DNA of 64,000 nt from a virus: the IMG/VR virus record IMGVR_UViG_3300011113_000642, positions 30,855 through 94,854 of that record; one strand, written 5' to 3'. Numbering within the stretch: the stretch's first letter is position 1; every line of letters begins with the position of its first letter. Below, in pieces: positions 12,465 to 40,780 of this stretch. The notes beneath the pieces were generated by a model that made no database searches, was not told the DNA's origin, and saw only the letters and a list, made by a program, of their open reading frames with translations. Position numbers and translations under genes: made by a program.

Positions 12465-12465
12465 G

Positions 12466-12473: not shown

Positions 12474-12478
12474 ATAGT

Positions 12479-12997: not shown

Positions 12998-13671
12998 ATA
13001 TAATCTTCTGGGTTATCTGACCAGCTTTCAGCTGAATTGGGGTTTCCCTCTGGATTAAATGGTATTTCATTCGTTGTAGGTTTAACTCTGCTGCGTTTTT
13101 TCTTCTTGGGTGGGGTCTTGGGCTGTTCTTGAAGTGGTTCGCTTATAGAGGATTCTGGCAATAATGGAGGTAATTCTTCAGAATTTTCCTCCTCTAACAT
13201 TTCTTCAAATGCCCCCTCTGCCTCAAAAGTTTCAATTAAATCATTTACAAAATTTACAAAATCTTCATTATTAAAAAGTTCATTTAATAATTGCAAGCCA
13301 TGTTCTGGATTTAAAAATTCATCCCCATTTCCATTTGTTATTATGGAAGAAGGATCAGTTTTCATAGTAATAAAAAACATATCATACATTTTTTTTAGTT
13401 CCCCTATGGGGGAAGCAATGTACATAATACTATTTCTGTTTATTGTAATTTCAAAATTTTCAACATTAACAGCGTAATTAGTCAGTTTTACAAGTTCAAC
13501 AATATTTCCATTTTCATCTTTACTGTAACCATTTTCAATTTTTGCTGGTAAGGTTAAAACTATTTTATCAACGGTTGCATCACGAATTATTCCTAATAAC
13601 TCGTCACCATTAATAAGCTTTACGACTCTTACAATCCCATCGAAATGAGATGCGGGTACTAGGTCAGACAT
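12994..13671 (-). CDS. LSm/Hfq-like protein with acidic and basic tail
   Basis: 225 residues. The first about 90 read as an Sm fold: VRVVKLINGDELLGIIRD (Sm1-like, with NGDELxG) then the Sm2-like end ITINRNSIMYIASP. The rest is Glu-rich (about 150-185) followed by a Lys/Arg/Pro cluster (PKKKKRSRVKP). Sm-like proteins of this type occur in T4-like marine phages; Sm/Hfq rings bind U-rich RNA. The gene follows uvsW with an SD of GGAGG and a late box across the uvsW stop. A role in RNA regulation is inferred, not shown. Confidence 0.7.
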   Translation of the reverse strand: MSDLVPASHFDGIVRVVKLINGDELLGIIRDATVDKIVLTLPAKIENGYSKDENGNIVELVKLTNYAVNVENFEITINRNSIMYIASPIGELKKMYDMFFITMKTDPSSIITNGNGDEFLNPEHGLQLLNELFNNEDFVNFVNDLIETFEAEGAFEEMLEEENSEELPPLLPESSISEPLQEQPKTPPKKKKRSRVKPTTNEIPFNPEGNPNSAESWSDNPEDYI

Positions 13672-13686
13672 AGCAGCCCTCCTAAT

Positions 13687-15195: not shown

Positions 15196-15202
15196 ATAAT
15201 AT

Positions 15203-15640
15203 TTAGACGATACCGTTCATCATTTTTTGCCAGTCAATTGCTGACTTGATGGTAAAATTCCTATTATTCAAAGCTTTTAAAAATTCTTCAACCATTTTAA
15301 CTTTAACTTCTAGTACAGCAATTTTAGATTTCATCTTGATAAGTTTTTCATCACCTTCGATAAACTTTTCAACATCTGTTTTTAAAATATCAAGATCAAA
15401 TGGCTCTTCGTTCCACGCCTCAAGTTCTTCTTTGGATGCCTTACCAGTTAAAATTTTCCATTTACGTAATTTTTGAATTGCATAATCATTTTGATTTTTA
15501 GTCAAAAGCAATTTAAAATCTGACAATAAATTGAGGTACTTTCCATGAATCTGTGGTATCTTTAAAGCTTCGTTTCCAAGTTCTGTAGAATCCACTTGAG
15601 AGTCTTTAGTTATATTGTTTTTTAGATCTTCTAAATCCAT
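15203..15640 (-). CDS. uvsY: UvsY recombination mediator
   Basis: 145 residues (T4 UvsY has 137). MDLEDLKNNITKDSQVDSTE matches the T4 opening MRLEDLQEELKKDVFIDSTK, followed by KIPQIHGKYLNLLSDFKLLL and a C-terminal helix ending in FTIKSAIDWQKMM. UvsY loads UvsX onto single-stranded DNA coated with gp32. It heads the leftward uvsY-uvsW-LSm run and has a sigma70-like promoter predicted to give a leaderless mRNA. Confidence 0.93.
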   Translation of the reverse strand: MDLEDLKNNITKDSQVDSTELGNEALKIPQIHGKYLNLLSDFKLLLTKNQNDYAIQKLRKWKILTGKASKEELEAWNEEPFDLDILKTDVEKFIEGDEKLIKMKSKIAVLEVKVKMVEEFLKALNNRNFTIKSAIDWQKMMNGIV

Positions 15641-15646
15641 ATTACC

Positions 15647-15674
15647 AGTGTACTTTGAAGGTAAATAAAGTCAA
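15647..15674 (-). promoter_or_regulatory. Sigma70-like promoter for uvsY, leaderless geometry
   Basis: On the minus strand: TTGACT (15669-15674), 16-base spacer, TACACT (15647-15652), then exactly six bases to the uvsY ATG. No Shine-Dalgarno is visible. Faces the promoter of the glycan island; the two -35 boxes are 9 bases apart. Confidence 0.6.
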
Positions 15675-15683
15675 CTAAATATC

Positions 15684-15713
15684 TTGACTATCTTATTCAA
15701 TGTATTATATTAT
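15684..15713 (+). promoter_or_regulatory. Sigma70-like promoter of the glycan island
   Basis: TTGACT at 15684-15689 with TATATT at 15706-15711 (16-base spacer) or TATTAT at 15708-15713 (18). A GAGG ribosome site at 15718-15721 precedes the ATG at 15726. Divergent from the uvsY promoter. Confidence 0.6.
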
Positions 15714-15725
15714 TTGTGAGGTTAT

Positions 15726-16361
15726 ATGATTATAGATCTTCGCGAAATACCAGTAGTCTGGATTAATTTAGATTCTGCAACAGAAAATGCTAAAGTTATG
15801 CAGGATCGTTTAAATCAACGTGGATTTAAAAATACTTACAGAAAATCTGCTAGAATTATTGTTGCTCCACCCGGAACAATTCCAAGCAATGCTCATTATG
15901 TTGGTTGTGCACAATCACATATTGATATTTTAGATGATTCAAATTATGGTACGCCTCTTTTAATTTTAGAAGATGATGCTGAATTTTCTGAAGCATTTAA
16001 TCCTATAATTAATATTCCAGATAATGCAGATGGTATTTATTTAGGAGTTTCTACTGGAAATAGAGGATACAAAACAAAAAGATATAATCAAGATTACTTA
16101 AGAATTGGTGGTATTTTGGCCACACACGCAATTTTATATGTAAAACCAGATTTTAAAACTATAATGTCACAGGCCGCTAAACATTGCATATACGATTTAC
16201 AACAACCATGGGATGTAGGTGCAGCTTCTGTGCAGTTTCATACTAAAGTTTATACTCCAAATAAGCCTTATTTTTATCAAGCAGATTCTCGACAATCTGC
16301 AAATAAATGGCAATTTTTTACTGATCAAGAATTGGAAGATAGAAATTCGGAATATTTATGA
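15726..16361 (+). CDS. GT25-like glycosyltransferase
   Basis: 211 residues. VVWINLDSATENA near residue 10, the GCAQSHIDIL block near 60 and LLILEDDAEF near 80 are the features of the LPS-biosynthesis glycosyltransferase family 25 (typically galactosyl- or glucosyltransferases), in which the EDD acidic motif binds metal and sugar nucleotide. First gene of the island, ATGA-overlapping the next. Acceptor and donor cannot be told from sequence. Confidence 0.75.
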   Translation: MIIDLREIPVVWINLDSATENAKVMQDRLNQRGFKNTYRKSARIIVAPPGTIPSNAHYVGCAQSHIDILDDSNYGTPLLILEDDAEFSEAFNPIINIPDNADGIYLGVSTGNRGYKTKRYNQDYLRIGGILATHAILYVKPDFKTIMSQAAKHCIYDLQQPWDVGAASVQFHTKVYTPNKPYFYQADSRQSANKWQFFTDQELEDRNSEYL

Positions 16362-17146
16362 TTACATTTAAATCTTTAGGCAATTATGGTAGATTTGGAA
16401 ATCAAATGTTTCAATACGCTACGCTTTTTGCAATAGCCAAAAAAAGAAAATATCAATTTGGTGTACCGTATAAAAATCGCCACCAAAACGATTACACGGA
16501 TTTTTGTTTACCAGATTGTTTTCCAAATTTAACAGCAAAAAATTCATCTGACGCAAATATTAAATTTGTAGCACAACAATTTATTTTTGAATACAATCCG
16601 GGTATTTTTGGTATTCTAGACGACACCGATATACGTGGTTATTTTCAAAGTGAAAAATATTTTGTTGATTACCGTGAACAACTTTTAAAAGAATATGAAT
16701 TTAGTAAGCAAATAAAAGATAAAGCTTTAGATATAAGGTCACTGACACAAAAACAAGCTATATCGATTCACATTCGTTTGGGTGATTATGTCAACCAACA
16801 ACAAAATCATCCTGTTTGTTCGATTGATTATTACGCTGAAGCATTGGAACAACTTCCAGATGACTTGCTGATTTATGTTTTTAGTGATGAAAATAAAAAA
16901 GCCGAACAAATTTTTAAATCATTGAATAAAAAAATAGTGTTCACAGAATCATCGGACAAATATGTTGATATGTGTACTATGGCATTATGTGATTATCATA
17001 TCATAGCTAATAGTTCTTTTAGCTGGTGGGGGGCATGGTTGTCTAATTCCAAGAAAGTAATAGCCCCATCTAAATGGTTTGGTAATGCTGAACACATGCC
17101 AAAGAATTGGTCAGATGTTTATTGTGAAGGATGGGTTGTAATATGA
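16358..17146 (+). CDS. GT11 alpha-1,2-fucosyltransferase-like
   Basis: 262 residues, usual for bacterial GT11. N-terminal GRFGNQMFQYATLFAIAKK, the GYFQSEKYF block near 94, HIRLGDYV at 138-145 (the GDP-fucose-binding HxRxGD(Y/F) motif), DLLIYVFSDE, and NSSFSWWGAWLS near 227 are all family signatures. GT11 enzymes add fucose alpha-1,2 to a terminal galactose. Start and stop overlap both neighbours (ATGA). Its donor would need GDP-fucose; a GDP-mannose 4,6-dehydratase is encoded at 22355, but no evident fucose synthase. Confidence 0.92.
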   Translation: MITFKSLGNYGRFGNQMFQYATLFAIAKKRKYQFGVPYKNRHQNDYTDFCLPDCFPNLTAKNSSDANIKFVAQQFIFEYNPGIFGILDDTDIRGYFQSEKYFVDYREQLLKEYEFSKQIKDKALDIRSLTQKQAISIHIRLGDYVNQQQNHPVCSIDYYAEALEQLPDDLLIYVFSDENKKAEQIFKSLNKKIVFTESSDKYVDMCTMALCDYHIIANSSFSWWGAWLSNSKKVIAPSKWFGNAEHMPKNWSDVYCEGWVVI

Positions 17147-17982
17147 ATACAGAAAATGTTACAGCCATAATTCCAATAAGAATTGATTCACCAGAACGAT
17201 TAAAAAATATTAATACAACAATTTCCTTTTTATTAAAATTTTATAACTGTAAAATTATAGTAAAAGAAGTTGATGCAAATCAAAAAGTTTTTTTAAAAAA
17301 TAATCCAAGACTTACTTACATTTTTGAACAAACAAATGATTTATCTTATTTTCACAGAACCAAAATATTAAATGATATGTTATTTCTTGTTGAAACAAAA
17401 TACACAATCAATTATGATTGTGATATATTGATTCCACAAGAAAATATGTACAAAACATTAAAAATGTTAGAAGAGGGATATGATTTTGTTTTTCCTTATG
17501 CAAAAGGAACTTTTTTAACATATTGGAATTTTAATGATCAGCAAATAGAAAAAATTTTATCTGACACCGATACATCTTGGTTGTCTTATTTGTTAAAAAA
17601 ATACCCCATATCAACGATTCATCCAGGCTTAGAAGTATTTAAAAAATTAAATTTAGGCAAAATAATTACAGCTGGGGGAATTCAATTTATTAAAACAGAT
17701 TCATATAAAAAAGCATTTGGAGAAAACGAATCTTTTATAGATTGGGGTCCAGAAGATCAGGAAAGGTTATATAGATTTTTTATTTTAGGATATAAGATAG
17801 GCTGGATTGATTTTAACTGTGTAATTCATATGAATCACCCAAAATCAGCAGCGACTGACGCCAATAATATGTACAATCAAAAAAACCACGAATTGTGGGA
17901 TTACATTACAAGTACATTTAAAACTAAAGAACAGTTAACAGATTATTTAAAATTGTTACCTTATACAAATAGGTTTTTATGA
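17143..17982 (+). CDS. GT2/GT7-like glycosyltransferase (GT-A fold)
   Basis: 279 residues from the ATG at 17143, chosen because it forms an ATGA overlap with the fucosyltransferase stop. N-terminus VTAIIPIRIDSPERLKN is GT2-like; NYDCDILIP near residue 90 carries the DxD; DWGPEDQERLYRFFILGY near 205 resembles the galactosyltransferase C-terminal (WGxED) block, and H-x-N-H-P follows. It probably moves a hexose or N-acetylhexosamine. Substrate unknown. Confidence 0.75.
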   Translation: MNTENVTAIIPIRIDSPERLKNINTTISFLLKFYNCKIIVKEVDANQKVFLKNNPRLTYIFEQTNDLSYFHRTKILNDMLFLVETKYTINYDCDILIPQENMYKTLKMLEEGYDFVFPYAKGTFLTYWNFNDQQIEKILSDTDTSWLSYLLKKYPISTIHPGLEVFKKLNLGKIITAGGIQFIKTDSYKKAFGENESFIDWGPEDQERLYRFFILGYKIGWIDFNCVIHMNHPKSAATDANNMYNQKNHELWDYITSTFKTKEQLTDYLKLLPYTNRFL

Positions 17983-18911
17983 AAAACACAAAGTATAAAA
18001 TTATTTTTTGGGGTTATCCACTACACACCGACACATTAAGTTATGTGTGGCATGCTCTGAAGAGAGCATTTGAATATCTTGGTTATGAATGTTATTGGTT
18101 TGATGACAATACATGTCCAGATAACTTTAATTATGAAAACTGTGTGTTTGTTACTGAAGGTAAGGCATGCAATAAGATGCCTATCCTAAAGGACAATACT
18201 TATATTGTGCATTATCTACATCAACCAGAACGGTTTCTCGGTAATGTCAATAGATTGATAGACATGAGGTATATGATAGATCGCCATTTTGGTGATCCGT
18301 TGTATACATGGGAATTTGATAAAAACAATTGCATTAAATTAGATGACGGGATTTATTATGATAATAATGCAGTACCTTATGAAAAAATTTACATAGCTTG
18401 GGCTACAAATTTATTACCACATGAAATAAATTTTGAAAATCGTTTTATCGAAAGAAAACCAGTTTTTAATTTTATAGGATCCATAAGCCCGAGCCATCAA
18501 TGGGGGCAGCATGATCAAATTCAAGAATTTATGGATGAATGTAGTAAAAACAACATTGTTTGTAACCATTACAATCCTTGGGTCAACCCACAAACGGAAG
18601 AAAATTTAATAAAATTAACACAGGAGTCTATTATTGCTCCAGACTTTCGTGGTCCAAAACATTTAGAAATAGGTCTTATGCCTTGTAGGTTATTTAAAAA
18701 CATATCCTATGGCCAATTAGGATTAACAAATTCGCCAAGAGCACATTATTATTTAGAAGAGACCACCGTTTTTTCTAACTCACCGTCTGAAATATTTTAT
18801 TTAGGGATGAATAATAAGACCAACTATGATTTGATAAAAAAACAAATGGAGTTAGTCAAAGCAAAACATACTTACATAAATAGAATACGTGGGCTGATTA
18901 AATTATTATAA
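17979..18911 (+). CDS. Putative GT-B-like glycosyltransferase
   Basis: 310 residues. Opens with IIFWGYPLHTDTLSYVWHAL, a Rossmann-like GT-B start, and has a C-terminal half with FNFIGSISPSHQWGQHDQI and ECSKNNIVCNHY, then FRGPKHLEIGLMPCRLFKNISYG, reminiscent of the nucleotide-sugar side of GT-B enzymes (an E-x-G and an R-x-F motif). No firm family. ATGA overlap with the previous gene ties it to the operon. Confidence 0.5.
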   Translation: MKNTKYKIIFWGYPLHTDTLSYVWHALKRAFEYLGYECYWFDDNTCPDNFNYENCVFVTEGKACNKMPILKDNTYIVHYLHQPERFLGNVNRLIDMRYMIDRHFGDPLYTWEFDKNNCIKLDDGIYYDNNAVPYEKIYIAWATNLLPHEINFENRFIERKPVFNFIGSISPSHQWGQHDQIQEFMDECSKNNIVCNHYNPWVNPQTEENLIKLTQESIIAPDFRGPKHLEIGLMPCRLFKNISYGQLGLTNSPRAHYYLEETTVFSNSPSEIFYLGMNNKTNYDLIKKQMELVKAKHTYINRIRGLIKLL

Positions 18912-18927
18912 CAAAGTGAGTATTTAA

Positions 18928-19536
18928 ATGTTTTATAGTGATGCAAAACAAGATGAATTTATAGCTAGATTATTAAATTTTTCTAAAAAAGGTTTTTATG
19001 TTGATATTGGAAGCTGTGGTGCGATAGAATCGAACAATACTTATTTTTTTGAAAGTTTAATGTGGAATGGAATATGCATAGAACTTGAAGCTAGGTATAA
19101 CCATACTTATTCCGCTCGTAATTGCAAATATCTAAATGCAGACGCATTGAAGATAAATTATAAAAAATTATTTGAAGAAGTATCTGCTCCAGACAATATT
19201 GATTATTTGTCTTTAGACATTGACACACAGAGTGTTAATGTTTTAAAATTGTTACCCTTTGACACTTACATTTTTAAAATTATAACAATCGAACACGATG
19301 CATATCTATATGGTGACATCTATAAGTCAGAACAAACTAATATTTTGGCTTCTTTTGGATATATAAAACTGTTTGAAAATGTTTTTGTCCAACAAGTTGG
19401 TTTTAATAAATTAAATTGCCCCTTTGAAGACTGGTGGGTTCATCCTAGTTTTTTTGATTTAAACAAGTTAACTAATTTAAAATCCTGCAACGTATATCCA
19501 TCCGAAATAATAGAAAAGTTAAAAAACTATGATTAA
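18928..19536 (+). CDS. FkbM-type methyltransferase
   Basis: 202 residues. YVDIGSCGAIESNNTYFFES is SAM motif I in FkbM form, followed by the acidic GICIELEARY strand end and DYLSLDIDTQSVNVLKLLPF (motif IV region) and ITIEHDAYLYG. FkbM enzymes O-methylate sugars and polyketides. It overlaps the next gene, a second FkbM-type protein, by eight bases. Confidence 0.75.
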   Translation: MFYSDAKQDEFIARLLNFSKKGFYVDIGSCGAIESNNTYFFESLMWNGICIELEARYNHTYSARNCKYLNADALKINYKKLFEEVSAPDNIDYLSLDIDTQSVNVLKLLPFDTYIFKIITIEHDAYLYGDIYKSEQTNILASFGYIKLFENVFVQQVGFNKLNCPFEDWWVHPSFFDLNKLTNLKSCNVYPSEIIEKLKNYD

Positions 19537-20158
19537 AAAATTTTTTGCTGAACACAATTTTGACGAATATATCAGAAATAAATTTTTTTCAGATTATTCA
19601 AAACCCGGGACAATAGTTGAAGTTGGCGCAGCTACTCCGGATTTTATTTCAATGTCCAGACATTTTAAATTAAATAACTGGCGGACAATCGTTGTGGAAC
19701 CAAATCCCCATTTTGTTGAACTACACAAGCAATTAAATAATGAAATATATCCTTATGCTTGTTCATTTGAAAATAAAGATGATGTAGATTTTACATTAGT
19801 TCACGTCAATAATGGTCAAATTACAAATCATTCATTTTCTTCTTTTTATATAAAAGAAGAATATATTGCAAAAAATCACAACTGGCCCACTACATTACCA
19901 AAAACTACAATCAAAGTTAAACAGCGAACTTTAGATTTTATTTTACAAGAAGCAAACGTTAATGAAATTGACTTGCTTGTGGTTGATGTAGAGGGTTGGG
20001 AAATTGAAGTAATAAAAGGATTAACAAGAATAAAACCAAAACTTATAATATTGGAAAATATATTTAATAATATGGATTATAGAAGATATATGGTCTCCAT
20101 TGGTTATAGTTTTTTAGAACATCGTTACAACGATGATGTATACACCTTAGTATCTTAA
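19529..20158 (+). CDS. FkbM-type methyltransferase, second copy
   Basis: 209 residues. TIVEVGAATPDFISMSRHFK (motif I), TIVVEPNPHFVELHKQL (acidic E of motif II), TIKVKQRTLDFILQEANVNEIDLLVVDVEGWEIEVIKGL (the FkbM D-x-E-G-x-E core) give a confident family call. Likely O-methylation of a sugar made by this island. It shares little beyond the fold with the preceding gene, so the two may act at different positions. Confidence 0.85.
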   Translation: MIKKFFAEHNFDEYIRNKFFSDYSKPGTIVEVGAATPDFISMSRHFKLNNWRTIVVEPNPHFVELHKQLNNEIYPYACSFENKDDVDFTLVHVNNGQITNHSFSSFYIKEEYIAKNHNWPTTLPKTTIKVKQRTLDFILQEANVNEIDLLVVDVEGWEIEVIKGLTRIKPKLIILENIFNNMDYRRYMVSIGYSFLEHRYNDDVYTLVS

Positions 20159-20160
20159 AT

Positions 20161-21075
20161 ATGAATAATTCATTAGTTATTGTGACGGGAATTTTAGGTC
20201 AAGATGGTCATTACTTAAATCATATTCTTTTAGAAAAAGGATTTGACATTATTGGTATTGACAAAGTTAAAAATCAAACACATAAAAATAAAAATTATAA
20301 TTTATTATTTGAGAATCTTACAAATTTAAATGTAGTAAACAATATTGTAAAAAAGTATAAACCTTATGCGGTTTTTAATTTAGCAGGATTTTCAAATGTT
20401 TTTGACCCGTGGGCAGACCATGATACTGTAGTAGAATCAACGAGCAGAATTCCAGAAAATTTTATTAGTGCAATACGCCATCACTCCCCAGAAACAAGAT
20501 TTTGTCAGGCATCATCTTGTTTAGTATTCGGAAATACTGACACGATAGTTCAAACAGAAAAAACCGCAAGAGCCCCATCATATCTTTATGGTGTATGTAA
20601 AAATTACATAGATACCCTAATACAAGAATCTAGAAAAGATTTAGGACTTCATTTTACTTCGGCTATATTTTATAATCACGAATCACCGTATAGAGGTGAT
20701 CAATTTTTTACAAAAAAAATAATAAATTTTGCAAAAACTTACAATAAACAAAATATATTACAATTAAAAAATTTAAATGTTCAAAAAGATATTGGTTTTG
20801 CGGGCGAGTATATGGAAGCTATGTTTAAAATAGCAACATCGTCAAAACCTGATGACTATATTGTTTCCACAAATAAACTTGTAGATTTAAATTTTATTAT
20901 TGATAAAATTTGTCAGCTATCTGGTCACAATCTTTGGGACAATATTACCGTAGATGATCGACATGGTAATAACAAAATATTATGTGGCGACAATTCTAAA
21001 ATTAAAACAGAACTAAACTGGTCACCGAAATATGACTGGGAATCGACAATAGAATTAATTTGGAACAATATATAA
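20161..21075 (+). CDS. GDP-mannose dehydratase-like SDR lacking catalytic Glu
   Basis: 304 residues of extended short-chain dehydrogenase fold. VTGILGQDGHYLNHILLEKG matches the GMD-type NAD(P) site, and NHESPYRGDQFFTKKI matches GMD exactly in pattern. The active-site SSSEMFG of true GMDs reads SSCLVFG here (Glu to Leu); the YxxxK (YGVCK near residue 143) is kept. Loss of the base for dehydration argues against ordinary 4,6-dehydratase activity; an epimerase, reductase or regulatory partner of the true GMD at 22355 is possible. Confidence 0.75.
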   Translation: MNNSLVIVTGILGQDGHYLNHILLEKGFDIIGIDKVKNQTHKNKNYNLLFENLTNLNVVNNIVKKYKPYAVFNLAGFSNVFDPWADHDTVVESTSRIPENFISAIRHHSPETRFCQASSCLVFGNTDTIVQTEKTARAPSYLYGVCKNYIDTLIQESRKDLGLHFTSAIFYNHESPYRGDQFFTKKIINFAKTYNKQNILQLKNLNVQKDIGFAGEYMEAMFKIATSSKPDDYIVSTNKLVDLNFIIDKICQLSGHNLWDNITVDDRHGNNKILCGDNSKIKTELNWSPKYDWESTIELIWNNI

Positions 21076-21076
21076 T

Positions 21077-21104
21077 TTGTTTTTGATAAAATACGTGGTA
21101 TAAT
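21077..21104 (+). promoter_or_regulatory. Extended -10 promoter inside the glycan island
   Basis: TGGTATAAT (extended -10, TATAAT at 21099-21104) with a weak -35 TTGTTT at 21077-21082 and 16-base spacer. An AAGGA site precedes the ATG at 21123. It would transcribe the second half of the island separately. Confidence 0.55.
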
Positions 21105-21122
21105 TTAAACTTAAGGAAAAAT

Positions 21123-22352
21123 ATGAATAAAGAATTTAATTTACTCAGTCTTGATAGTCTTTATGTATCTGATTTTTTAAATGACAACGAAAAGCCGAGA
21201 GGTGGAAAATACTCATTAGACATTGTGCTAGATACCACAATTAATGCACCACGTTTAAAAACAGTGGCACCATCGGGTGTAATGTATGGCAAGTATTGGT
21301 ATCGTTCTGGTATCAATTCATCAATGAAAACCGAACTACAAAATATCGTAGAAACGATTAAATCACGATTTAAACTTGTAGAAAATGACATTTGGTTGGA
21401 TATTGCGTGCAATGACGGCACGCTTCTTTCTTTTGTCCCAAAGACTTGCATTCGTGTTGGTATCGATCCAGCTGACAATTCTTATGTCCAAGAATCAAAG
21501 CAATTTGCCAATGCAATTGTTCAAGATTATTTTTCTTTAAATGCTTGGCAAAAAACTCCTTTTGCAAAGCAAAAGGCAAAAGTCATCACTTCTATCGCGG
21601 TTTTTTATGATTTAGATGACCCAATGTCATTTGTAAATGACATAAAAAACGTCTTAGCAAAAGATGGTTTGTGGGTGTTACAACTAAGTTATACCCCACT
21701 TATGTTAAAGCAACTTGCTTTTGACAATATTTGCCATGAACACGTTTACTATTATTCAGTAGAAAATTTAAAAATTTTGTTTGAAAAATGTGGAATGAAA
21801 ATAGTAGACGTTGAATTAAATGATGTCAACGGAGGTTCATTTCGTGTCTTTGTTATGAACAAGGAAGGAAATAAATCAAAGTACGGGACAGCTCCTCTAA
21901 GAGACGTTGCTTCATATAGAATTGATTCACTTCTTCAATACGAAAAAACTTTAAATCTTTCTTCTATTAAAACATGGAATGATTTTAAACAAAAAATCGA
22001 TAATTTAAAAGATGAAGTAGTATCCTTTATCAAGGAAGCCAAAAAAAATGGCAAAACTGTTTGGGGATATGGCGCTTCTACCAAAGGAAACACATTATTG
22101 CAGTATTTTGGTTTAGATCATACTATGATTGATGCCATAGCCGAAAGAAGTCCCTATAAGTGGGGATTGAAGACCGTAGGAACAGGAATTCCAATCAAAT
22201 CTGAGGCAGATATGCGTCAAGCACACCCAGATTATCTACTTGTACTACCGTGGCACTTTATATCTGAATTTATTGAAAGAGAAAAAGACTACTTGGGCAA
22301 AGGTGGAAAGTTTATTGTTCCATGCCCTTCATTTAAAGTTATTGGACTATAA
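21123..22352 (+). CDS. Sugar C-methyltransferase-like, zinc-site cysteines missing
   Basis: 409 residues. Follows the plan of deoxysugar C-methyltransferases (NovU/TylCIII type): partial N-terminal domain (residues 20-75), SAM domain with WLDIACNDGTLLSFV near 91-105, the ICHEHVYYYSVENLK block near 203, and a C-terminal Rossmann-like domain (VWGYGASTKGNTLLQYF near 315). The N-terminal zinc-binding cysteines are absent: no Cys occurs before C96. It therefore may have a changed or structurally compensated N-domain. Expected role: C-methylation of a keto-deoxysugar nucleotide, fitting the GMD next to it. Confidence 0.75.
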   Translation: MNKEFNLLSLDSLYVSDFLNDNEKPRGGKYSLDIVLDTTINAPRLKTVAPSGVMYGKYWYRSGINSSMKTELQNIVETIKSRFKLVENDIWLDIACNDGTLLSFVPKTCIRVGIDPADNSYVQESKQFANAIVQDYFSLNAWQKTPFAKQKAKVITSIAVFYDLDDPMSFVNDIKNVLAKDGLWVLQLSYTPLMLKQLAFDNICHEHVYYYSVENLKILFEKCGMKIVDVELNDVNGGSFRVFVMNKEGNKSKYGTAPLRDVASYRIDSLLQYEKTLNLSSIKTWNDFKQKIDNLKDEVVSFIKEAKKNGKTVWGYGASTKGNTLLQYFGLDHTMIDAIAERSPYKWGLKTVGTGIPIKSEADMRQAHPDYLLVLPWHFISEFIEREKDYLGKGGKFIVPCPSFKVIGL

Positions 22353-22354
22353 TT

Positions 22355-23344
22355 ATGACACAAAAAATTGCTTTAATTGCTGGTGTAAACGGACAAGACG
22401 GTTCCTATTTGAGCAAATTGCTTCTTGATAAGGGATATAGGGTTATCGGTTTGAAGAGAAGAACAAGCTCAATAACAACAGATCGCATAGATGATATTAT
22501 TTCTAATCCAAATTTTGTATTAAGATACTATGATCTTTTGGATGCGGCTTCTGCTTATAGTTTAATCTCTGAGTACAAACCAGATGAAGTATATAATCTA
22601 GCAGCACAGTCTCACGTAAAAGTATCTTATGAGTTACCTCACTATACAGTGGATACTATTGTGACTGGTACTTTAAACCTTTTAGAGGCTATCAAATTAC
22701 TAAAACCAAATACAAAATTTTATCAGGCATCTTCCTCCGAAATGTTTGGAGACAACCCAGTTATTCCTGACAAGGGATATAATGAAGATTCACAGTTGAT
22801 ACCAGTATCGCCTTATGCAGCAGCTAAGGTGTGTGCCCATCATCTTGTTCAAATTTATAGAAAATCATATAATTTACATGCATCATGTGGAATTCTTTTT
22901 AATCATGAATCACCTTATAGGGGTGAAACATTTGTAACTAAAAAAATTACCATGGCTGCCGCCAAGATAAAGCTAGGAATGCAAAAAAAACTTTATCTAG
23001 GAAATCTCTATAGCAAAAGAGATTGGGGGTTTACTGGTGACTACGTAAAAGCAATGTGGCTAATGCTACAGCAAGAAATTCCAGACGATTATGTTATAGC
23101 CTCTGGGACAACCCACACGATTGAAGAATTTTTAGTTCAAGTTTTTGATTATGCCGAGTTGGGCGATTATAAACAGTTTGTAGAAATTGATTTAAAATTA
23201 TTTAGACCTTCGGAAGTGCCCTACCTATTGGGCGATTCAACAAAGGCTAAAACCAAATTAAACTGGAACACCGATACGAATATGATTAAACTTGCACATA
23301 TGATGTATGACTTTGATTATAAAAGTTTTAGTCTTAAACAATGA
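22355..23344 (+). CDS. gmd: GDP-mannose 4,6-dehydratase
   Basis: 329 residues. Cofactor site ALIAGVNGQDGSYLSKLLLD, LKRRTSSITTDRID, VYNLAAQSHVKVSYE, the intact active site ASSSEMFGDNP with Ser/Glu and YAAAKVCAH (YxxxK), and NHESPYRGETFVTKKIT. It makes GDP-4-keto-6-deoxy-D-mannose, precursor of GDP-fucose, GDP-rhamnose and related sugars. Starts three bases after the C-methyltransferase gene and overlaps the next by four. Confidence 0.95.
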   Translation: MTQKIALIAGVNGQDGSYLSKLLLDKGYRVIGLKRRTSSITTDRIDDIISNPNFVLRYYDLLDAASAYSLISEYKPDEVYNLAAQSHVKVSYELPHYTVDTIVTGTLNLLEAIKLLKPNTKFYQASSSEMFGDNPVIPDKGYNEDSQLIPVSPYAAAKVCAHHLVQIYRKSYNLHASCGILFNHESPYRGETFVTKKITMAAAKIKLGMQKKLYLGNLYSKRDWGFTGDYVKAMWLMLQQEIPDDYVIASGTTHTIEEFLVQVFDYAELGDYKQFVEIDLKLFRPSEVPYLLGDSTKAKTKLNWNTDTNMIKLAHMMYDFDYKSFSLKQ

Positions 23345-24303
23345 AAATTGCACTTATTGGCCCCGGAATAATGGAAATACCTCCCCCTAAATGGGGAGCT
23401 GTAGAAATGGTTATATGGGATAACTACAATATTTTAATGGAAGCTGGGTATCAAGTAGACATTATAAATACACCAAACCATCAAGCCATTGTAGATACGG
23501 TAAATAGAAATAACTATGATGTAATTCATTTACATTATGATGTTTTTTCTTATTTGATACCGTATTTTAAAGCTAAAGTAAAAATTTTGTCAAGCCATTA
23601 TCCTTTTATAGAAAAAAAGGAGCAATACCCCGCAGATGGTTATGATAAAATCGTAAATCATATTATCAACAATAAAGATTTTTATATTTTTGCTTCGTCA
23701 CAAAAAGACATAAACACATTTGTTTCGTATGGTGCAAATGAAGAAAAAACTTTTTTGTGTCGTTTAGGTGTAAAGCATGATTCTTATGATTACAATTTTA
23801 ATGCTTTATATGATAAAACTCTTTGTTTTTCTCAGATTGTAGATAGAAAAAGACAGTTTAAAATTCAAGATATAAATGGTATTGATTTTGTTGGGCGATT
23901 AGATGATTCAAAATTTGTAAATAAAAAAACTTATTTGGGTGAATTCGACAGAACCATTTTAAACAAAGAAATAACCAAATATACAAATTTTATTTTGTTA
24001 AGTAAAACAGAAAATACAACGCCTTTAGTTGTGAAAGAAGCGCTAATATGTGGACTTGGTTTAGTAGTTACTGAACCAGTTGCATACGAGCTCGATTTAT
24101 CCAAACCATTTATCTCAATAATACCAGAAGATAAAATTGATGATAAACAATATATTGCAAATACTGTAAATCAAAATAAAAACATCTCTATGAACATGAG
24201 AGATGAGATAAGAAATTATGGTATTACAAAGTTTGACATAAAAAATATTTTATTAAATGAATATATTCCAAAAATAAAAAAGTTAATGGAGACAGCTAAA
24301 TGA
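23341..24303 (+). CDS. GT4-like glycosyltransferase, copy 1
   Basis: 320 residues, GT-B fold. MKIALIGPGIMEIPPPKWGA then VEMVIWDNYNIL is the N-terminal loop typical of bacterial GT4 enzymes; the C-terminal half has FVGRLDDSKF and TTPLVVKEALICGLGLVVTE (the ExxxxGxP-like donor site: KEAL-x-CGL). Closely resembles the gene at 25102, with one GT-A gene between, so the trio arose by duplication. ATGA overlaps on both sides. Confidence 0.85.
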   Translation: MKIALIGPGIMEIPPPKWGAVEMVIWDNYNILMEAGYQVDIINTPNHQAIVDTVNRNNYDVIHLHYDVFSYLIPYFKAKVKILSSHYPFIEKKEQYPADGYDKIVNHIINNKDFYIFASSQKDINTFVSYGANEEKTFLCRLGVKHDSYDYNFNALYDKTLCFSQIVDRKRQFKIQDINGIDFVGRLDDSKFVNKKTYLGEFDRTILNKEITKYTNFILLSKTENTTPLVVKEALICGLGLVVTEPVAYELDLSKPFISIIPEDKIDDKQYIANTVNQNKNISMNMRDEIRNYGITKFDIKNILLNEYIPKIKKLMETAK

Positions 24304-25100
24304 AATGCAAATATACATTTTTTTATGTAGTTGGGGGAAAAGATTTATATTATGAACAACTTCAAACATCAATAAAAAGTTTGCAAAGAATTAATTCACC
24401 ATTTAAAATTAAAATTTTAGATATTGGTAAAAAACTCAAGTCAGAAAACAACATGGAAGTTATACACACCGATGTCGATATAAAAGATAAACACGTGTTT
24501 TGGCAATACAAATATAACATATGCCAAACATTAGATACTGACCATGGTATCTATCTTGATTGTGATACTGTTGTGTGTTATAATATGTTGGAAAATTTAT
24601 TCAACAAAATAGGTTCTTCTTTTGGAGCAATTCCACATTTTTATGTTAAAAATTTTGAAAACTATTTAAATATTTTTAATACAACAAAAACAAAAGAGTA
24701 TTGCGAGCAACACAACCTATCTAAGGAACATGTCTTTAATACTGCTGGTGTTTTTTTATTTTCAAATAATAAAGCCTGCAAAAATATTTTAAAAGAAACG
24801 TTTGATTTGCACAACACAGTTTATTCTGAAAAAACATCATACCAAGAAGGTTTATATGATGAAACCTTTTTGTCTACAGTTTTAAAAAATTACCACTATA
24901 CCAAATTGAATGGATCTGCAAACCATTGTTCTGCCAATCTGATGCCTATTGAAATTCAAAATAATATATTGGTTGGAAAAAATCCATTTGATGATAATTA
25001 CGAGCCAATTTTTGTTTTACACGGTTCTTCTAAAAGACAAAAAGAGGCTCAAGATTTTACTGGAAATATAAAAGAAAAAATTATAGAGTTTTGGAGTTAA
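24300..25100 (+). CDS. GT-A (GT8-like) glycosyltransferase
   Basis: 266 residues. YTFFYVVGGKDLYYEQLQTS opens a GT-A domain; GIYLDCDTVVCYNM near residue 85 carries the DxD metal site; FNTAGVFLFSNN near 155 and a C-terminal VLHGSSKR fit GT8-type retaining enzymes. Donor unknown. Sits between two GT4-like paralogues with overlap at its start and one base gap at its end. Confidence 0.7.
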   Translation: MKCKYTFFYVVGGKDLYYEQLQTSIKSLQRINSPFKIKILDIGKKLKSENNMEVIHTDVDIKDKHVFWQYKYNICQTLDTDHGIYLDCDTVVCYNMLENLFNKIGSSFGAIPHFYVKNFENYLNIFNTTKTKEYCEQHNLSKEHVFNTAGVFLFSNNKACKNILKETFDLHNTVYSEKTSYQEGLYDETFLSTVLKNYHYTKLNGSANHCSANLMPIEIQNNILVGKNPFDDNYEPIFVLHGSSKRQKEAQDFTGNIKEKIIEFWS

Positions 25101-25101
25101 T

Positions 25102-26070
25102 ATGAAAATTGCAATTGTTGGTCCTGGCTTAATGGAAATACCCCCTAAAAATTGGGGGGCGGTAGAATCATTAATATGGGATTATTATGAATATTTAAAA
25201 CAAAAAAATGTTTTGGTAGATATCATAAATCATCCAAACATGAATGAAGTCGCCAATCATCTCAATAATACAGAATATGATTTCATTCATGTTCAATATG
25301 ACGATCATGCTGGACCTTTAAGCCATCTATTAAAAAAGCCTTTTTGTACAACAATGCATTATGGTTATATAAAAGAACACTATCCAACCTATGGAGGTTG
25401 GAAACCAATTTTTGATGGTATTTTAAAAAGTCCGGGAATTTTTTCTTTATCACCAGAAATTACTAAATTAGTAAAAAGCTCTGGCTATTCTAGTTTTATT
25501 AGAACGTTGCGTAATGGAGCTAGAACTAAAGATTTTGCGTTTAAACACGAAGGAACAAAGAGCGCAGTCTGCCTTGGAAAAATTGAAAACAGAAAACAAC
25601 AAAGTTTTTTAGCAAGTAGATGTAAAAATAAATGTAACATAGATTTTGTGGGACCGATTGTAGACTCTTCCTTTAAAGAAAACAATACCTGCAAATATGG
25701 TGGTGTATGGAGCAAGCCAGATCTGTATCAAAAGATGACAGATTATAAATGTTTGGTTTTACTCAGTGATGGTGAAGCTGCACCTCTGGTTGTACCCGAA
25801 GCCCTTTCAGCTGGTTTAAGCATAGTTGTTTCGAAAACAGCAGCAGCTAATTTAGACACCTCCCTCCCCTTTATACATGTTATCGATAACCCGAAGCAAG
25901 AAAACATTGAACATATTATAAATGAAACTATAGAAAACAACTCTAAATATAGAAAACAAATAAGGCAGTATGCACTTGATGTTTTTGATTGGAATGTAGT
26001 GTGTAACGATTATATCAAATATGTGAAAGAATTTATAAATGAAACTAGCCTTTGCCACAATAGCAACTAA
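25102..26070 (+). CDS. GT4-like glycosyltransferase, copy 2
   Basis: 322 residues. MKIAIVGPGLMEIPPKNWGA and VESLIWDYYEYLK match the opening of the gene at 23341 almost position for position; KSAVCLGKIENRKQQ, CNIDFVGPIVDSSFK and AAPLVVPEALSAGLSIVVSK form the donor-binding half (PEAL-x-AGL). Overlaps the following GT6 gene by 32 bases in another frame. Donor and acceptor unknown. Confidence 0.87.
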   Translation: MKIAIVGPGLMEIPPKNWGAVESLIWDYYEYLKQKNVLVDIINHPNMNEVANHLNNTEYDFIHVQYDDHAGPLSHLLKKPFCTTMHYGYIKEHYPTYGGWKPIFDGILKSPGIFSLSPEITKLVKSSGYSSFIRTLRNGARTKDFAFKHEGTKSAVCLGKIENRKQQSFLASRCKNKCNIDFVGPIVDSSFKENNTCKYGGVWSKPDLYQKMTDYKCLVLLSDGEAAPLVVPEALSAGLSIVVSKTAAANLDTSLPFIHVIDNPKQENIEHIINETIENNSKYRKQIRQYALDVFDWNVVCNDYIKYVKEFINETSLCHNSN

Positions 26071-26749
26071 CAAGTACGCAGCGTATGCAAAAAATTTAAT
26101 TGAAACAATAGATCGGTATGCGTTTACAGGATCTAATGTTGAAGTTTGTGTAGTTATTTATACAAACAATGAAAAAAATTTTTTAAATTATACGCCAACA
26201 AACATAAAAATAAAAACGGTAAATATAACACATGTTCCGTTTCCTTTGATTTCTTTATTAAGGTATCACTACTACACCTCCGATGATTCTTTAAAAAATT
26301 ATGATTATGTTTATCACATTGATTGTGATATGTTGTTGCAAGACAATGTTGGTGAAGAAATTGTTGGAGATCGAGTTTGTGTGGAACACCCGGGTTTTTT
26401 CCAACAATTTAATAATTTAAATTTTCCATATGATAGAAATCCTGTTGCAAATGCCTATGTTAAAATGGGTTTAGGTACAAAGTATTATCAAAATTGTTTG
26501 CAGGGTGGTTCTGTTAATGAATTTTTTAACATGAGCGTAGAACTGCGAAATCGAATAGAAGAAGATTTAAGAAAAAACTATATTGCGCTGTGGCACGATG
26601 AGAGTTATATGAATAAGTATATGGTGGACAATCCTCCAACCTTAATTTTGCCAACAACATATGCTCAACCACAAGGCTGGCCATCATACGGGCCAACTAA
26701 AATTTTACATGTAGACAAAAATCATTTAGAGGTTAGAAAAACAAAATGA
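26039..26749 (+). CDS. GT6 (ABO/alpha-1,3-galactosyltransferase-like) enzyme
   Basis: 236 residues. The sequence follows the vertebrate ABO/alpha-1,3-galactosyltransferase core: YVYHIDCDMLLQDNVGEEI with DxD at 95-97, EHPGFFQQ at 116-123, the QGGSVNEF segment near 155-162 and WHDESYMNKY at 185-194 (human WHDESHLNKY). GT6 enzymes add Gal or GalNAc alpha-1,3 to a galactose, in ABO enzymes one bearing alpha-1,2 fucose. It lacks the transmembrane stem, as microbial members do. The same island carries a GT11 fucosyltransferase and a GalE-like epimerase that could supply acceptor and donor. Confidence 0.93.
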   Translation: MKLAFATIATNKYAAYAKNLIETIDRYAFTGSNVEVCVVIYTNNEKNFLNYTPTNIKIKTVNITHVPFPLISLLRYHYYTSDDSLKNYDYVYHIDCDMLLQDNVGEEIVGDRVCVEHPGFFQQFNNLNFPYDRNPVANAYVKMGLGTKYYQNCLQGGSVNEFFNMSVELRNRIEEDLRKNYIALWHDESYMNKYMVDNPPTLILPTTYAQPQGWPSYGPTKILHVDKNHLEVRKTK

Positions 26750-27642
26750 ATTATTTAATAACAGGTGGTGCCGGATTTATTGGATCAAATTTGGTCAATA
26801 AGTTGGTTGATGATGGACACATCGTGTCTGTCATAGACAATCTTTCTTCTGACGCACACGACTCATTTTATTTCAATAACAGTGCATCATATTATCTTTA
26901 CGATGTAAATGATCATGTAATGTGTTCTGATGTCTTTAACAGACATAATCCCGATTACGTCCTTCATCTCGCAGCTGAAGCAAGAATACAAAACTGTGTT
27001 GAAGACCCCACAAAGGCATACGAAACAAATCTAATTGGAACATTAAATATTTTGTCTTTGTGTAAAAAATATAATGTTAAAAGACTTGTTTTGTCTACAA
27101 CATCGGCAATATATGGATTAAAAAATACGGGCCCTTTAAACGAGGATATGCCCCCAGATTGTTTAAATGCATACTCACTGAGTAAGTACAATGCCGAACA
27201 AGCATGTAAACTTTATAGTTCTATGTATGGAGTAGATACTGTTGGATTGCGATATTTTAATGTCTATGGTCCAAACCAACCAAAAAAAGGACCTTATGCT
27301 CCAGTAATAGGGGTATTTACCAGACAAAAAAAAGCGAATCAAAACCTAACGGTTGTAGGTGATGGTGAACAAACTAGAGATTATGTCCACGTGTCTGATG
27401 TAGTCAAAGCTAATTTGTTGGCCGCAACACATAAAAAAAATTTATTTGGTGAAATTTTTAACGTTGGAACTGGTAAAAATTATTCTGTAAATTGGATTGC
27501 ATCAAAAATAGAGCCAAATTCAACCAAAATTACTCGCATACCACCAAGACAGGGCGAAGCGCGGGATACAATAGCAAATACCTCCAAGATTGAAAATATT
27601 TTAGGCTGGAAAGCAGATATCTCATTAGAAAACTGCATTTAA
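26746..27642 (+). CDS. UDP-sugar 4-epimerase (GalE-like)
   Basis: 298 residues, extended SDR. ITGGAGFIGSNLVNKLVDDG (NAD site), LAAEARIQNCVEDPTKAYETN, active site LSTTSAIYG and YSLSKYNAE (YxxxK), RYFNVYGPNQ and RDYVHVSDVV. These fit UDP-glucose/UDP-GlcNAc 4-epimerases, which make UDP-Gal or UDP-GalNAc. It overlaps the GT6 gene by four bases (ATGA), consistent with donor supply to that enzyme. Slightly short at the C-terminus (GalE is about 330), ending at the promoter of gene 55. Confidence 0.88.
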   Translation: MNYLITGGAGFIGSNLVNKLVDDGHIVSVIDNLSSDAHDSFYFNNSASYYLYDVNDHVMCSDVFNRHNPDYVLHLAAEARIQNCVEDPTKAYETNLIGTLNILSLCKKYNVKRLVLSTTSAIYGLKNTGPLNEDMPPDCLNAYSLSKYNAEQACKLYSSMYGVDTVGLRYFNVYGPNQPKKGPYAPVIGVFTRQKKANQNLTVVGDGEQTRDYVHVSDVVKANLLAATHKKNLFGEIFNVGTGKNYSVNWIASKIEPNSTKITRIPPRQGEARDTIANTSKIENILGWKADISLENCI

Positions 27643-33669: not shown

Positions 33670-33677
33670 GGATGCAC

Positions 33678-34895
33678 ATGTATAATTTAACTCTTGCAAT
33701 GATCGTAAAAAACGAGGCACCAAACATCGAAAGATGCTTAACCTCAGTCGCACCATTTATTAATTATTATGTAATCTGTGATACAGGTTCTACTGATAAC
33801 ACCAAAGAAATTATTAAAAAGTTCTTTGATGAAAAAGGAATTCCAGGAGAAATTCACGATCATGAATGGTCTGACTTTGGTACAAATCGTTCCAAAGCTC
33901 TTGAACTTTGCTATGGAAAGACTAAATGGGCTATCATGATTGATGCCGACGATTTTATTACCGGTACTCTTCCAGTTGATAAATTTGATGATTCTTTAGA
34001 TGGTTATGTGGTACAAATTCAAAGAGGTGAGTTCCGTTGGTTGCGTGCTCAGCTTTTTAATCTTGGTAAAAAGAAGTGGTGGTATGAAGAGCCACTACAC
34101 GAATATGCAATTTGTGAACAGCCCATGAATGTTAAAAAACTAGATGGTGATTATGCCTGGGAAGTAAGAACCGAGGGTTGCCGCGCAAGATCTTTTGCAA
34201 ATGATATTGAAAAGTATAAAAAAGATTATGAAACTTTAAAGGGTTATTTAGAAAAAGATCCAAACCAACCACGAAAACAATTCTATGCTGCTCAGTCTGC
34301 ATTTGATTCAAGGATGTTTGATATTGCAGAGCAAGAATACCTAAAAAGAATTGCTTTGGGTTCTTGGCCAGAAGAAGTATTTTTCTCTTGGATGCGTGTT
34401 GGTATGTGCCGAGAATTTTTAAATAAACCTGTTGAACAAATTGCTGATGCATTTATGATGGCCTTTGAAGTCGCTCCACACCGAGTAGAGCCATTATATC
34501 ATCTTTCTTGCATCTATCGTAAGTATGATCGTCCAAGAAACGCATTTTTAGTTGCATCTCTGGGCCTTACTATTCCGATTCCTGAAAATGATATTTTGTT
34601 TGTTGATCGTGCTAATTACCTTTGGGGTATTTACGATGAAATTGGTACAACAGCATTTTATGCTGGAAGAGCACAAATTGGCCTTTTAGCTTGTGAAAAG
34701 CTTCTAAAGGAAACACATATGCCGGAGGAGCATCGGGGGCGTATAGCCAATAATCATAAAATTTATGTTGAACATATGAAAAAAATGCAAGAAGAGTATT
34801 TAAAACAGCAAGAGGCTTTGTCGCAAAAAATACAAAAAGAGGCCAATAAAACTACATTGGTAATTAATCCAGAAGCGGCTACAGTAAAGCTTTGA
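33678..34895 (+). CDS. GT2 glycosyltransferase with TPR-like C-terminal region
   Basis: 405 residues from the ATG at 33678, which is six bases after AAGGA; another ATG at 33672 is too close to that site. TLAMIVKNEAPNIERCLTSV, YYVICDTGSTDNTKEII and AIMIDADDFI (DxDD) are a SunS/GT2-like domain, residues 1-190. The second half is helical with repeated aromatic pairs, like TPR arrays, ending in a Gln/Lys-rich coil. Such enzymes glycosylate proteins or LPS; here it sits alone between regA and the fibre genes, so virion fibre glycosylation is a fair guess. Confidence 0.85.
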   Translation: MYNLTLAMIVKNEAPNIERCLTSVAPFINYYVICDTGSTDNTKEIIKKFFDEKGIPGEIHDHEWSDFGTNRSKALELCYGKTKWAIMIDADDFITGTLPVDKFDDSLDGYVVQIQRGEFRWLRAQLFNLGKKKWWYEEPLHEYAICEQPMNVKKLDGDYAWEVRTEGCRARSFANDIEKYKKDYETLKGYLEKDPNQPRKQFYAAQSAFDSRMFDIAEQEYLKRIALGSWPEEVFFSWMRVGMCREFLNKPVEQIADAFMMAFEVAPHRVEPLYHLSCIYRKYDRPRNAFLVASLGLTIPIPENDILFVDRANYLWGIYDEIGTTAFYAGRAQIGLLACEKLLKETHMPEEHRGRIANNHKIYVEHMKKMQEEYLKQQEALSQKIQKEANKTTLVINPEAATVKL

Positions 34896-35367: not shown

Positions 35368-37512
35368 GTGACAGATATTATTTCTTCCAGTAATGAAATA
35401 CCTGTTGTTAATGTAACAGTTAATACAAATTCGCTGGCTAGAGTTGAAGTTACTCCTGGCGGTGGGATTGGTGGAGGAGGAGGGGGTCCGGGTTCTACGG
35501 GGGCGACTGGCCCAATGGGGCCAACCGGTCCAACCGGACCAACTGGTTCTCAGGGAATAACTGGTAATACTGGCCCGACTGGACCAATAGGACCACAAGG
35601 AAATACTGGAGCAACAGGACCGACAGGATCTACTGGTTTACCTGGAGATATATTTGCTACTTCTTCTACTACTTCGGTTAATCTTTCATCAATAACTATA
35701 GGTTCCGAAGTATCTCTCAGCACAGAAACTGGTTTAGCATATACCAAAGTGCAAGACATTTTAATAGCAAGTGGACTTACAAACTATTTTAATGCACAAA
35801 TCATATCATATATTGGAGCGACACTAAATGTTTCTGTTACCGGGATAACTGGCTCGGGAACTTGGAATAATTGGGACATAAATTTGGCTGGCCCCATAGG
35901 TCAAGCTGGTCCTCAAGGCCCACAAGGTATTCAAGGAAACACGGGGGCTACTGGTGCTATACCAACAGAATATGTTGCTAACTTTAATGGACTTACAGGA
36001 AATGTATTAACTTCATTTGTTTCTGGATTGAATGGAAGCACTGGAATACAACTTATAACATTTTCAAATCCAAATCCTCCATATGGAGATTCTTTAACTA
36101 TTAGAAATACGGGTGTTTTGTCATATAATGGCACTGGTGGAAATGTTGTTGGCGTTTCTTCTCTCGCAGTTAGTTCTGGGCTTCTTCGACTTAGTGGGGC
36201 AACCGGGGATGTAACTATCAGCAACAATGGTGTTTTGTCATTTAATGAGCAAAATGGTCATATTCAAGGTGTTAATTCTGTAAATGGAGCAACAGGTTCC
36301 GTTCAAGCAGTTAACCGAATCAATGGTATTACTGGAAATATCGGTTTAACATCTGGTTCGGGAATAGCAATTTCTTCATCTGGAAATACTTTTACTGTTT
36401 CTAATAGTGGTGTTTTATCTGTTAGTATAGTGTCTCCTGGTGGAATTAATTTGGGTGGTTCATCATCAAATATAACTCTTTCAAATGGTGGTGTTTTAAG
36501 TTTTAATAATTCTAGTGGAAATGTTGTCGGTGTTTCTTCGGTTTCTGGTTTAACTGGTTCTATTGGAATTTCAGCAGGAAATAATATTATAATTTCTTTA
36601 AGTGGAAATACTTTAATAATTGGTGCTACTGGAACAATAGGAAATACAGGTAATACGGGACCAACAGGACCTGAAGGACCACAGGGTATTCAAGGCATAC
36701 AAGGTATTCGGGGAAATACAGGTAATACGGGACCAACAGGACCTGAAGGACCACAGGGTATTCAAGGCATACAAGGTATTCAAGGCATACAAGGTATTCA
36801 GGGAAATACAGGTAATACGGGACCAACAGGACCATTACCAACAAATTTTATTTCTTTCTTTAATGGGTATACGGGTATAGTAGGTATTAGTGCCGGCAGT
36901 AATATTACAATAACTCCATCTACTTCAGCTAGTGGAACAACGTTTACTATTGCTTCTACTGCTTCTGGAAGCGGTGGTTCCACATTTATTCCAGACCTTA
37001 GACCTTTGGGTGTTACTGCTGACATTATTGCAATGCGTAATGGTGGCTGGACTTTGGCAAAACCAAATAGTATTTCTTTCCCTCAAGTAAATTTGGGAGC
37101 AATAGCCGTTACAATTGGTGGTTTAACATCATGGAGTGCTGCAAAATTTCGATCTACAGTATATGCGGGCTCTACATTATGGTTAACATTAGGTGATGGA
37201 ACATTTTTATGTTTTAACAGAGCAGAAATAGATCCTTTTCTTATTGCTAATGGTGGTTTTTCTGCAGGTCCAGCAACACAGATGACTATTTTACAAGGCT
37301 TAGGAGTGACTTGGCCATCGGGAACAATAACAAATCATACAAATGTTCAAGGTGGAGCGCCCAACGGTCAAAATCAAACATTGTGGGTTAATTGGATGGA
37401 CGGTGGAAATTATATAATCCATTCGGGCTGGGCAATTAAATTAAGTGGAATTACTTCTGGTGGTGTTGGTAGTGGAGGAATTGGTGGTGGTGGAGGCATC
37501 CAGCCATTATAA
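35368..37512 (+). CDS. Collagen-like tail fibre protein A (714 aa)
   Basis: GTG start with GGAGG seven bases upstream. Gly-X-Y repeats in three blocks: about residues 41-94 (starting PGSTGATGPMGPTGP), 175-196, and 415-490 with many Ile-Gln-Gly units. Between them are beta repeats of the form NTGVLSxNGxxGNVxGVSS, and a C-terminal globular domain (from about 540) ending in a Gly-rich tail. The third block contains 72-base direct DNA repeats. Collagen-like triple helices are common rigid shafts in phage fibres; the C-terminal domain is the likely receptor-binding part. Confidence 0.8.
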   Translation: MTDIISSSNEIPVVNVTVNTNSLARVEVTPGGGIGGGGGGPGSTGATGPMGPTGPTGPTGSQGITGNTGPTGPIGPQGNTGATGPTGSTGLPGDIFATSSTTSVNLSSITIGSEVSLSTETGLAYTKVQDILIASGLTNYFNAQIISYIGATLNVSVTGITGSGTWNNWDINLAGPIGQAGPQGPQGIQGNTGATGAIPTEYVANFNGLTGNVLTSFVSGLNGSTGIQLITFSNPNPPYGDSLTIRNTGVLSYNGTGGNVVGVSSLAVSSGLLRLSGATGDVTISNNGVLSFNEQNGHIQGVNSVNGATGSVQAVNRINGITGNIGLTSGSGIAISSSGNTFTVSNSGVLSVSIVSPGGINLGGSSSNITLSNGGVLSFNNSSGNVVGVSSVSGLTGSIGISAGNNIIISLSGNTLIIGATGTIGNTGNTGPTGPEGPQGIQGIQGIRGNTGNTGPTGPEGPQGIQGIQGIQGIQGIQGNTGNTGPTGPLPTNFISFFNGYTGIVGISAGSNITITPSTSASGTTFTIASTASGSGGSTFIPDLRPLGVTADIIAMRNGGWTLAKPNSISFPQVNLGAIAVTIGGLTSWSAAKFRSTVYAGSTLWLTLGDGTFLCFNRAEIDPFLIANGGFSAGPATQMTILQGLGVTWPSGTITNHTNVQGGAPNGQNQTLWVNWMDGGNYIIHSGWAIKLSGITSGGVGSGGIGGGGGIQPL
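36640..36829 (+). repeat. 72-base tandem repeats within collagen-like block
   Basis: A 72-base unit beginning GGAAATACAGGTAATACGGG starts at 36640 and 36712, and again at 36802 after an 18-base insertion of the GGCATACAAGGTATTCAA type. Units are nearly identical in DNA, so the expansion is recent. They encode GNTGNTGPTGPEGPQG followed by IQG triplets. Confidence 0.85.
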
Positions 37513-37515
37513 ATA
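37508..37515 (+). promoter_or_regulatory. Late promoter box before fibre protein B
   Basis: Exact TATAAATA overlapping the stop of the preceding fibre gene; ATG begins ten bases later, so the leader would be only about five bases. Confidence 0.55.
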
Positions 37516-37525
37516 ATTTAAACTA

Positions 37526-40773: not shown

Positions 40774-40780
40774 TTAAGAC

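Follow-up and report, generated by a model that had tools for sequence, protein, structure and literature searches.

The gene under study lies at positions 26039-26749 on the plus strand of the window, by which we mean the whole 64,000-nucleotide stretch of viral DNA analysed, and encodes a glycosyltransferase of family GT6 (236 aa). It belongs to a co-directional glycan island of fourteen genes (15726-27642, plus strand), most of which overlap or nearly touch, with a GC content of 0.309 versus 0.374 elsewhere in the window. A UvsW-type DNA helicase gene flanks the island on one side and genes for a late sigma factor, SbcD-SbcC-like proteins and a clamp flank it on the other. All members are read from the plus strand. 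The island opens with a GT25-like glycosyltransferase (15726-16361; a weak match of 20.3 bits, cut-off 24), a GT11 fucosyltransferase-type enzyme (16358-17146) and a glycosyltransferase with GT7 C-domain similarity (17131-17982; 22.6 bits, cut-off 23). It also holds an FkbM-family methyltransferase (19529-20158), a short SDR resembling GDP-mannose 4,6-dehydratase (GMD; 20161-21075), GMD itself (22355-23344), a GT4-type glycosyltransferase (25102-26070; PF00534, 31 bits), the 3′ end of which overlaps the start of GT6 by 32 bases, and a GalE-like UDP-sugar epimerase (26746-27642).

The surrounding genome is that of a T4-like phage. The major capsid protein shares 53% identity with its cyanophage counterparts, and the terminase about 50% with those of Pelagibacter, Methylophilales and cyanophages. 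The cyanobacterial-host marker psbA was not found in the 94.8 kb record, which is possibly incomplete. Several long Gly-X-Y collagen-like tail-fibre proteins are encoded at 35368-45129. Between the replication genes and these fibre genes, and thus outside the island, lies an extra glycosyltransferase (33672-34895; PHROG 13126) with a weak match to the S-glycosyltransferase SunS. The same virus record also encodes a 2490-aa Cys-rich protein (positions 8783-16255 of the record, outside the window).

We confirmed that 26039-26749, in a T4-like environmental phage, encodes a protein truly related to the human ABO blood-group enzyme. The original prediction of an ABO-like GT6 with a DxD motif was borne out: the translation (MKLAFATIATNKY...IDCDM...EHPGFF...WHDESYMNKY) carries DxD at residues 95-97 and WHDE at 185-188, and matches PF03414 (CAZy GT6) at 107.7 bits, against a curated cut-off of 25. 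The best solved relatives are BoGT6a of Bacteroides ovatus (E 5e-27), followed by the ABO enzymes (E 3e-23), and these E-values together with the PF03414 score exclude a chance resemblance. The protein was assigned to PHROG 3317, and its start codon agrees with those of phage homologues, despite the 32-base overlap with the preceding gene. Since it scores only 140.3 bits against NCBIfam NF041524 (a family 6 glucosyltransferase subfamily), below the cut-off of 250, we regard it as a divergent GT6 member.

An AlphaFold model (pLDDT 93.8), built from 19 viral homologues, has the GT-A fold of the ABO/BoGT6a type. It superposes on BoGT6a with UDP-GalNAc/UDP at a TM of 0.93 and on human GTA/GTB at 0.91-0.92. 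Residues E188, D95-C-D97 and K227 align with E192, N95-A-N97 and K231 of BoGT6a, and the equivalents of the BoGT6a UDP and catalytic contacts (as given in PMC3961637) are retained, namely Thr10, Tyr13, DxD, His117, Asp187-Glu188 and Lys227. Thus, the structural comparison that had been suggested as a check found the UDP-binding residues intact. Identity to BoGT6a is 28%; the Bacteroides enzyme shares substrate-contact residues with the phage protein, but is a metal-independent A-antigen synthase with NxN and the donor triplet A-G-G, whereas the phage protein has DxD and Q-N-C. Human GTA/GTB (28% identity) share DxD and WHDES..NKY, but differ at positions 266/268 and 245, and the phage protein is without their stem/transmembrane part.

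The GT11 protein (262 aa; motif HIRLGDY) matches PF01531 (CAZy GT11) at 81.9 bits versus a cut-off of 23.9, and PHROG 2644 at 255.6 bits. A sequence search for solved GT11 relatives found none. In a fold search with its model (pLDDT 93.7), the leading structures were POFUT1, NodZ, AtFUT1 and FUT8 (TM about 0.5-0.6), and the modelled fold is that of a GDP-fucose-type GT-B enzyme. The α-1,2-fucosyltransferase motif is HxRRxD, where the window protein reads HIRLGD; in our alignment of GT11 proteins the first Arg is invariant, and the second is Leu in the clade of the window protein and Arg in the cyanophage-type GT11. An α-1,2 linkage is not assured in any case, because one GT11 enzyme, HhFT2, forms an α-1,3 bond (PMC4202792).

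Genes for nucleotide-sugar supply accompany the two transferases. The GalE-like epimerase was correctly said to be coupled to GT6, as it starts at 26746 inside an ATGA that overlaps the GT6 stop codon. Its nearest solved relative is 4zrm, a UDP-glucose 4-epimerase; its score against the galE model TIGR01179 (188.3 bits) is below the cut-off of 262.3, so that "GalE-like" is right and "GalE" itself would go too far. The GMD gene scores 407.5 bits against TIGR01472 (cut-off 415), and GMD catalyses the first committed step to GDP-fucose. The shorter GMD-like protein at 20161 keeps YxxxK, but reads SSCLVFG, as opposed to SSSEMFG in its GMD paralogue; it appears to have lost the dehydratase Glu, and may possibly act on the product of GMD, as a 4-keto reductase or an epimerase. 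GDP-fucose synthase was absent from the 94.8 kb record (possibly a fragment), the sole match being the GalE-like gene (63.6 bits); the synthase is present, at 417-467 bits, in eight GT6/GT11 phages.

The GT6 had been described as next to the fucosyltransferase. The GT11 gene is real, and lies upstream in the same co-directional run; however, the two are separated by 8,895 bases and 11 genes. The pairing had also been considered the notable part of the locus, with GT6 itself already known from a marine cyanophage. The latter is correct (PMC3961637 refers to GT6 in cyanophages), and P-SSM2 was evidently meant, but we rejected the novelty of the pairing, since P-SSM2 carries both genes in one island, and other sequenced cyanophages, several Synechococcus phages among them, carry them as consecutive genes. 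Among the papers in the library searched, none was found that remarks on the cyanophage pairing, which does not mean that none exists.

P-SSM2 has GT11, GT6 and an epimerase within 12 kb of sequence that also holds GMD and a GDP-fucose synthase (462 bits). That island (PSSM2_257-271) resembles the one in the window in having GMD, GT11, a DxD GT6, nucleotide-sugar epimerases and GT25; it differs in that GT11 is only 1.5 kb from GT6, the GDP-fucose synthase is a true one, and the GT6, 38% identical to ours, has the A-G-G triplet. GT11 directly abuts GT6 in DSL-LC02, DSL-LC03, Bellamy, B23, S-CAM9, SynMITS9220M01, S-PRM1 and S-8S53, and an epimerase precedes them in five of these. Bellamy, S-CAM9, S-PRM1, S-8S53 and SynMITS9220M01 thus share with the window an epimerase, a GT11 and a GT6 of donor class Q-x-C. 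Their GT6 is about 27% identical to ours, and the three genes are consecutive and overlapping in that order, whereas the window has its epimerase after GT6 and its GT11 8.9 kb upstream. Both families also occur in two phages of 635-642 kb. In two further contigs the order is reversed, with GT6 followed by GT11 about 20 bases away, and Ala replaces the Trp of WHDE that is conserved elsewhere. The window is therefore a further instance of a known and, it appears, conserved phage sugar-building module, and not a first.

To gauge how general the association is, we surveyed records found through GT6. GT11 was found in 16 of 17 viral contigs with GT6, and 23 of 24 phage GT6 clusters (90% identity; 10 contig clusters and 14 phage-record clusters, from records that are fragments) share a record with GT11, the exception being a 7.7 kb faecal scaffold. 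The sole neighbourhood control was GMD. Among 50 records found through GMD, GT11 scored over the cut-off in three and GT6 in one, where GT11 lies 2 bases away; GMD-bearing control records carried GT11 in 2 of 49. The contrast between 23/24 and 2/49 gives a Fisher p of about 1e-15 if shared ancestry is ignored, and at the level of lineages (5 of 6 phage GT6 lineages versus 2 of 49 GMD records) p is about 4e-5, with relatedness likewise ignored. Two other island genes yielded no usable control: no relatives turned up for the glycosyltransferase at 24300, and for the epimerase there were four loci, of which three form a single cluster.

The reverse association is weak, with GT6 present in only 5 of 50 GT11 records. 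In a GT6 tree of 112 sequences, phage GT6 fall in about six places, five of them with GT11, and well-supported branches force at least four changes between phage and bacterium. Among bacterial GT6 loci, 42 of 80 have GT11 within 10 kb; the other 38 belong mostly to an A-G-G group of Dependentiae and Chlamydiae. The phage association is therefore strong and one-way, and a single ancestry is insufficient to explain it. Such one-way nesting, in which GT6 is found with GT11 but seldom the reverse, fits a GT6 that consumes the GT11 product.

Precedent for such an order of steps is found in E. coli O86, where WbwK (GT11) and then WbnI (GT6) make the B antigen (PMC4202792). The likeness is one of family and step order; the O86 genes form a bacterial LPS locus, and their chemistry is proven. 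With roughly even confidence, we suggest that the window GT6 is a metal-dependent retaining enzyme that would transfer an α-hexose, most likely Gal from UDP-Gal, onto a GT11-fucosylated β-galactoside-like terminus, in a late B-antigen-like step. The family, fold, catalytic residues, neighbourhood and co-occurrence were computed, and from these we infer donor, acceptor, linkage, order and site (virion or host). In this scheme, GMD would form GDP-4-keto-6-deoxymannose, from which GDP-fucose would be made by a fucose synthase that is host-encoded, encoded outside the record, or possibly the GMD-like protein at 20161. The GT11 would then add fucose, the epimerase would provide the UDP-sugar, and GT6 would cap the same galactose-like residue with α-Gal (an α-1,3-Gal-type step), as in the O86 B antigen. 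Methyltransferases and other glycosyltransferases may elaborate the glycan, and the finished product would be displayed on the virion or on the host surface; the collagen-like fibres encoded downstream are plausible acceptors.

Of the H/A/B-like trisaccharide originally envisaged, the order of steps thus remains plausible, given the co-occurrence and the O86 precedent; the product is less certain, in view of donor residues that oppose an A (GalNAc) cap, a Pro in place of Thr245, the missing GDP-fucose synthase and the HIRLGD motif. The substitution on the acceptor side bears on a different reading, in which GT6 adds α-Gal or α-Glc to an unfucosylated residue, as an α3GT-like or capsule-type enzyme, and GT6 and GT11 act at different sites along a long glycan. 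The acceptor-contact Thr245 (Thr134 in BoGT6a) is Pro in the window protein and most of its clade, and Thr, Ser or Ala elsewhere, so that the acceptor-side Thr of the histo-blood-group A/B transferases is lacking here. The distance between the two genes, with several other glycosyltransferases in between, and the 38 bacterial loci that have no GT11 within 10 kb also fit separate sites of action. Nevertheless, GT11 accompanies almost every phage GT6, across separate GT6 lineages, and directly abuts it in many phages; we therefore consider this reading unlikely, though worth keeping in mind.

The metal-binding motif says little about which GT6 this is. DxD had been offered as a contrast to the NxN of many bacterial enzymes, but it was found in all phage GT6 checked, with the sole exception of one 7.7 kb faecal scaffold, and is common in Dependentiae and Chlamydiae; we therefore rejected it as a distinguishing mark. 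Its presence leads us to expect metal dependence in phage GT6, and a DxD-type GT6 enzyme of Parachlamydia requires Mg2+ or Mn2+ (PMC3961637). DxD-type GT6 genes were also common in metagenome bins of Dependentiae, Babeliales and Chlamydiae, mostly without GT11 nearby, and their frequency well exceeds that implied by a 2014 statement that nearly all bacterial GT6 are NxN.

More can be said of the donor. At human positions 266-268, the triplet is Q-N-C in the window GT6 and in its nine-row clade, Q-G-C in most cyanophages, and A-G-G, as in BoGT6a, in P-SSM2 and the huge phages. Polynucleobacter and Kaistia chromosomes encode DxD GT6 with Q-G-C that group beside the cyanophage clade (SH-aLRT 96). 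We know of no characterised counterpart of Q-N-C, and UDP-Glc or another hexose donor is possible. Use of a GalNAc donor has been proposed to require Gly at 266 or 268 (PMC4692239). The window protein has Q266 and C268, and so lacks the residues of a histo-blood-group A transferase; this favours UDP-Gal (B-like) or another hexose over GalNAc, and from its sequence we predict Gal rather than GalNAc as the donor. An A-type enzyme that makes an A-antigen-like cap with GalNAc would agree with Gly at position 235 (HPGF), as in GTA, with the overall likeness to the A synthase BoGT6a, and with the epimerase, in which a by-eye comparison places Thr at the position of E. coli GalE Tyr299, so that epimerisation of UDP-GlcNAc is possible. 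As the GT6 enzymes known to use GalNAc carry Gly at position 266 or 268, we find this quite improbable. Slightly more doubtful still is simple hitch-hiking, in which T4-like phage glycan islands share a pool of glycosyltransferases and GT6 is inherited with GT11 without functional coupling: many of the phages compared are related cyanophages with often conserved gene order, but the roughly six separate places of phage GT6 in the tree, five with GT11, the rarity of GT11 in GMD-bearing control records and the one-way association all argue against it.

Our preferred reading of a late, B-antigen-like step can be extended, more tentatively than for the window enzyme itself, to phages at large. Tailed phages that infect aquatic bacteria may possess a histo-blood-group-like capping module that is conserved and has been assembled repeatedly; GT11 would act before GT6, often with the module's own supply of GDP-fucose and UDP-sugar, and the module would decorate virions or remodel the host surface. 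Its GT6 would fall into two donor classes set by the triplet: enzymes with A-G-G would use GalNAc and be A-like, and those with Q-x-C would use Gal and be B-like, with the window enzyme in a phage-only Q-N-C branch. By itself the window offers a modest gain, as cyanophage genomes with this pairing have been public since P-SSM2; what deserves keeping is the rule that ties GT6 to GT11 in phages generally, together with the prediction of donor classes. The one-way dependence of GT6 on GT11 and the two donor classes make concrete predictions that are cheap to follow up. If the caps are truly H/A/B-like, phages in aquatic bacteria would be making blood-group epitopes unconnected with animals; they would then be another environmental reservoir of GT6 genes, and the purpose of phage glycan islands would gain a clear test.
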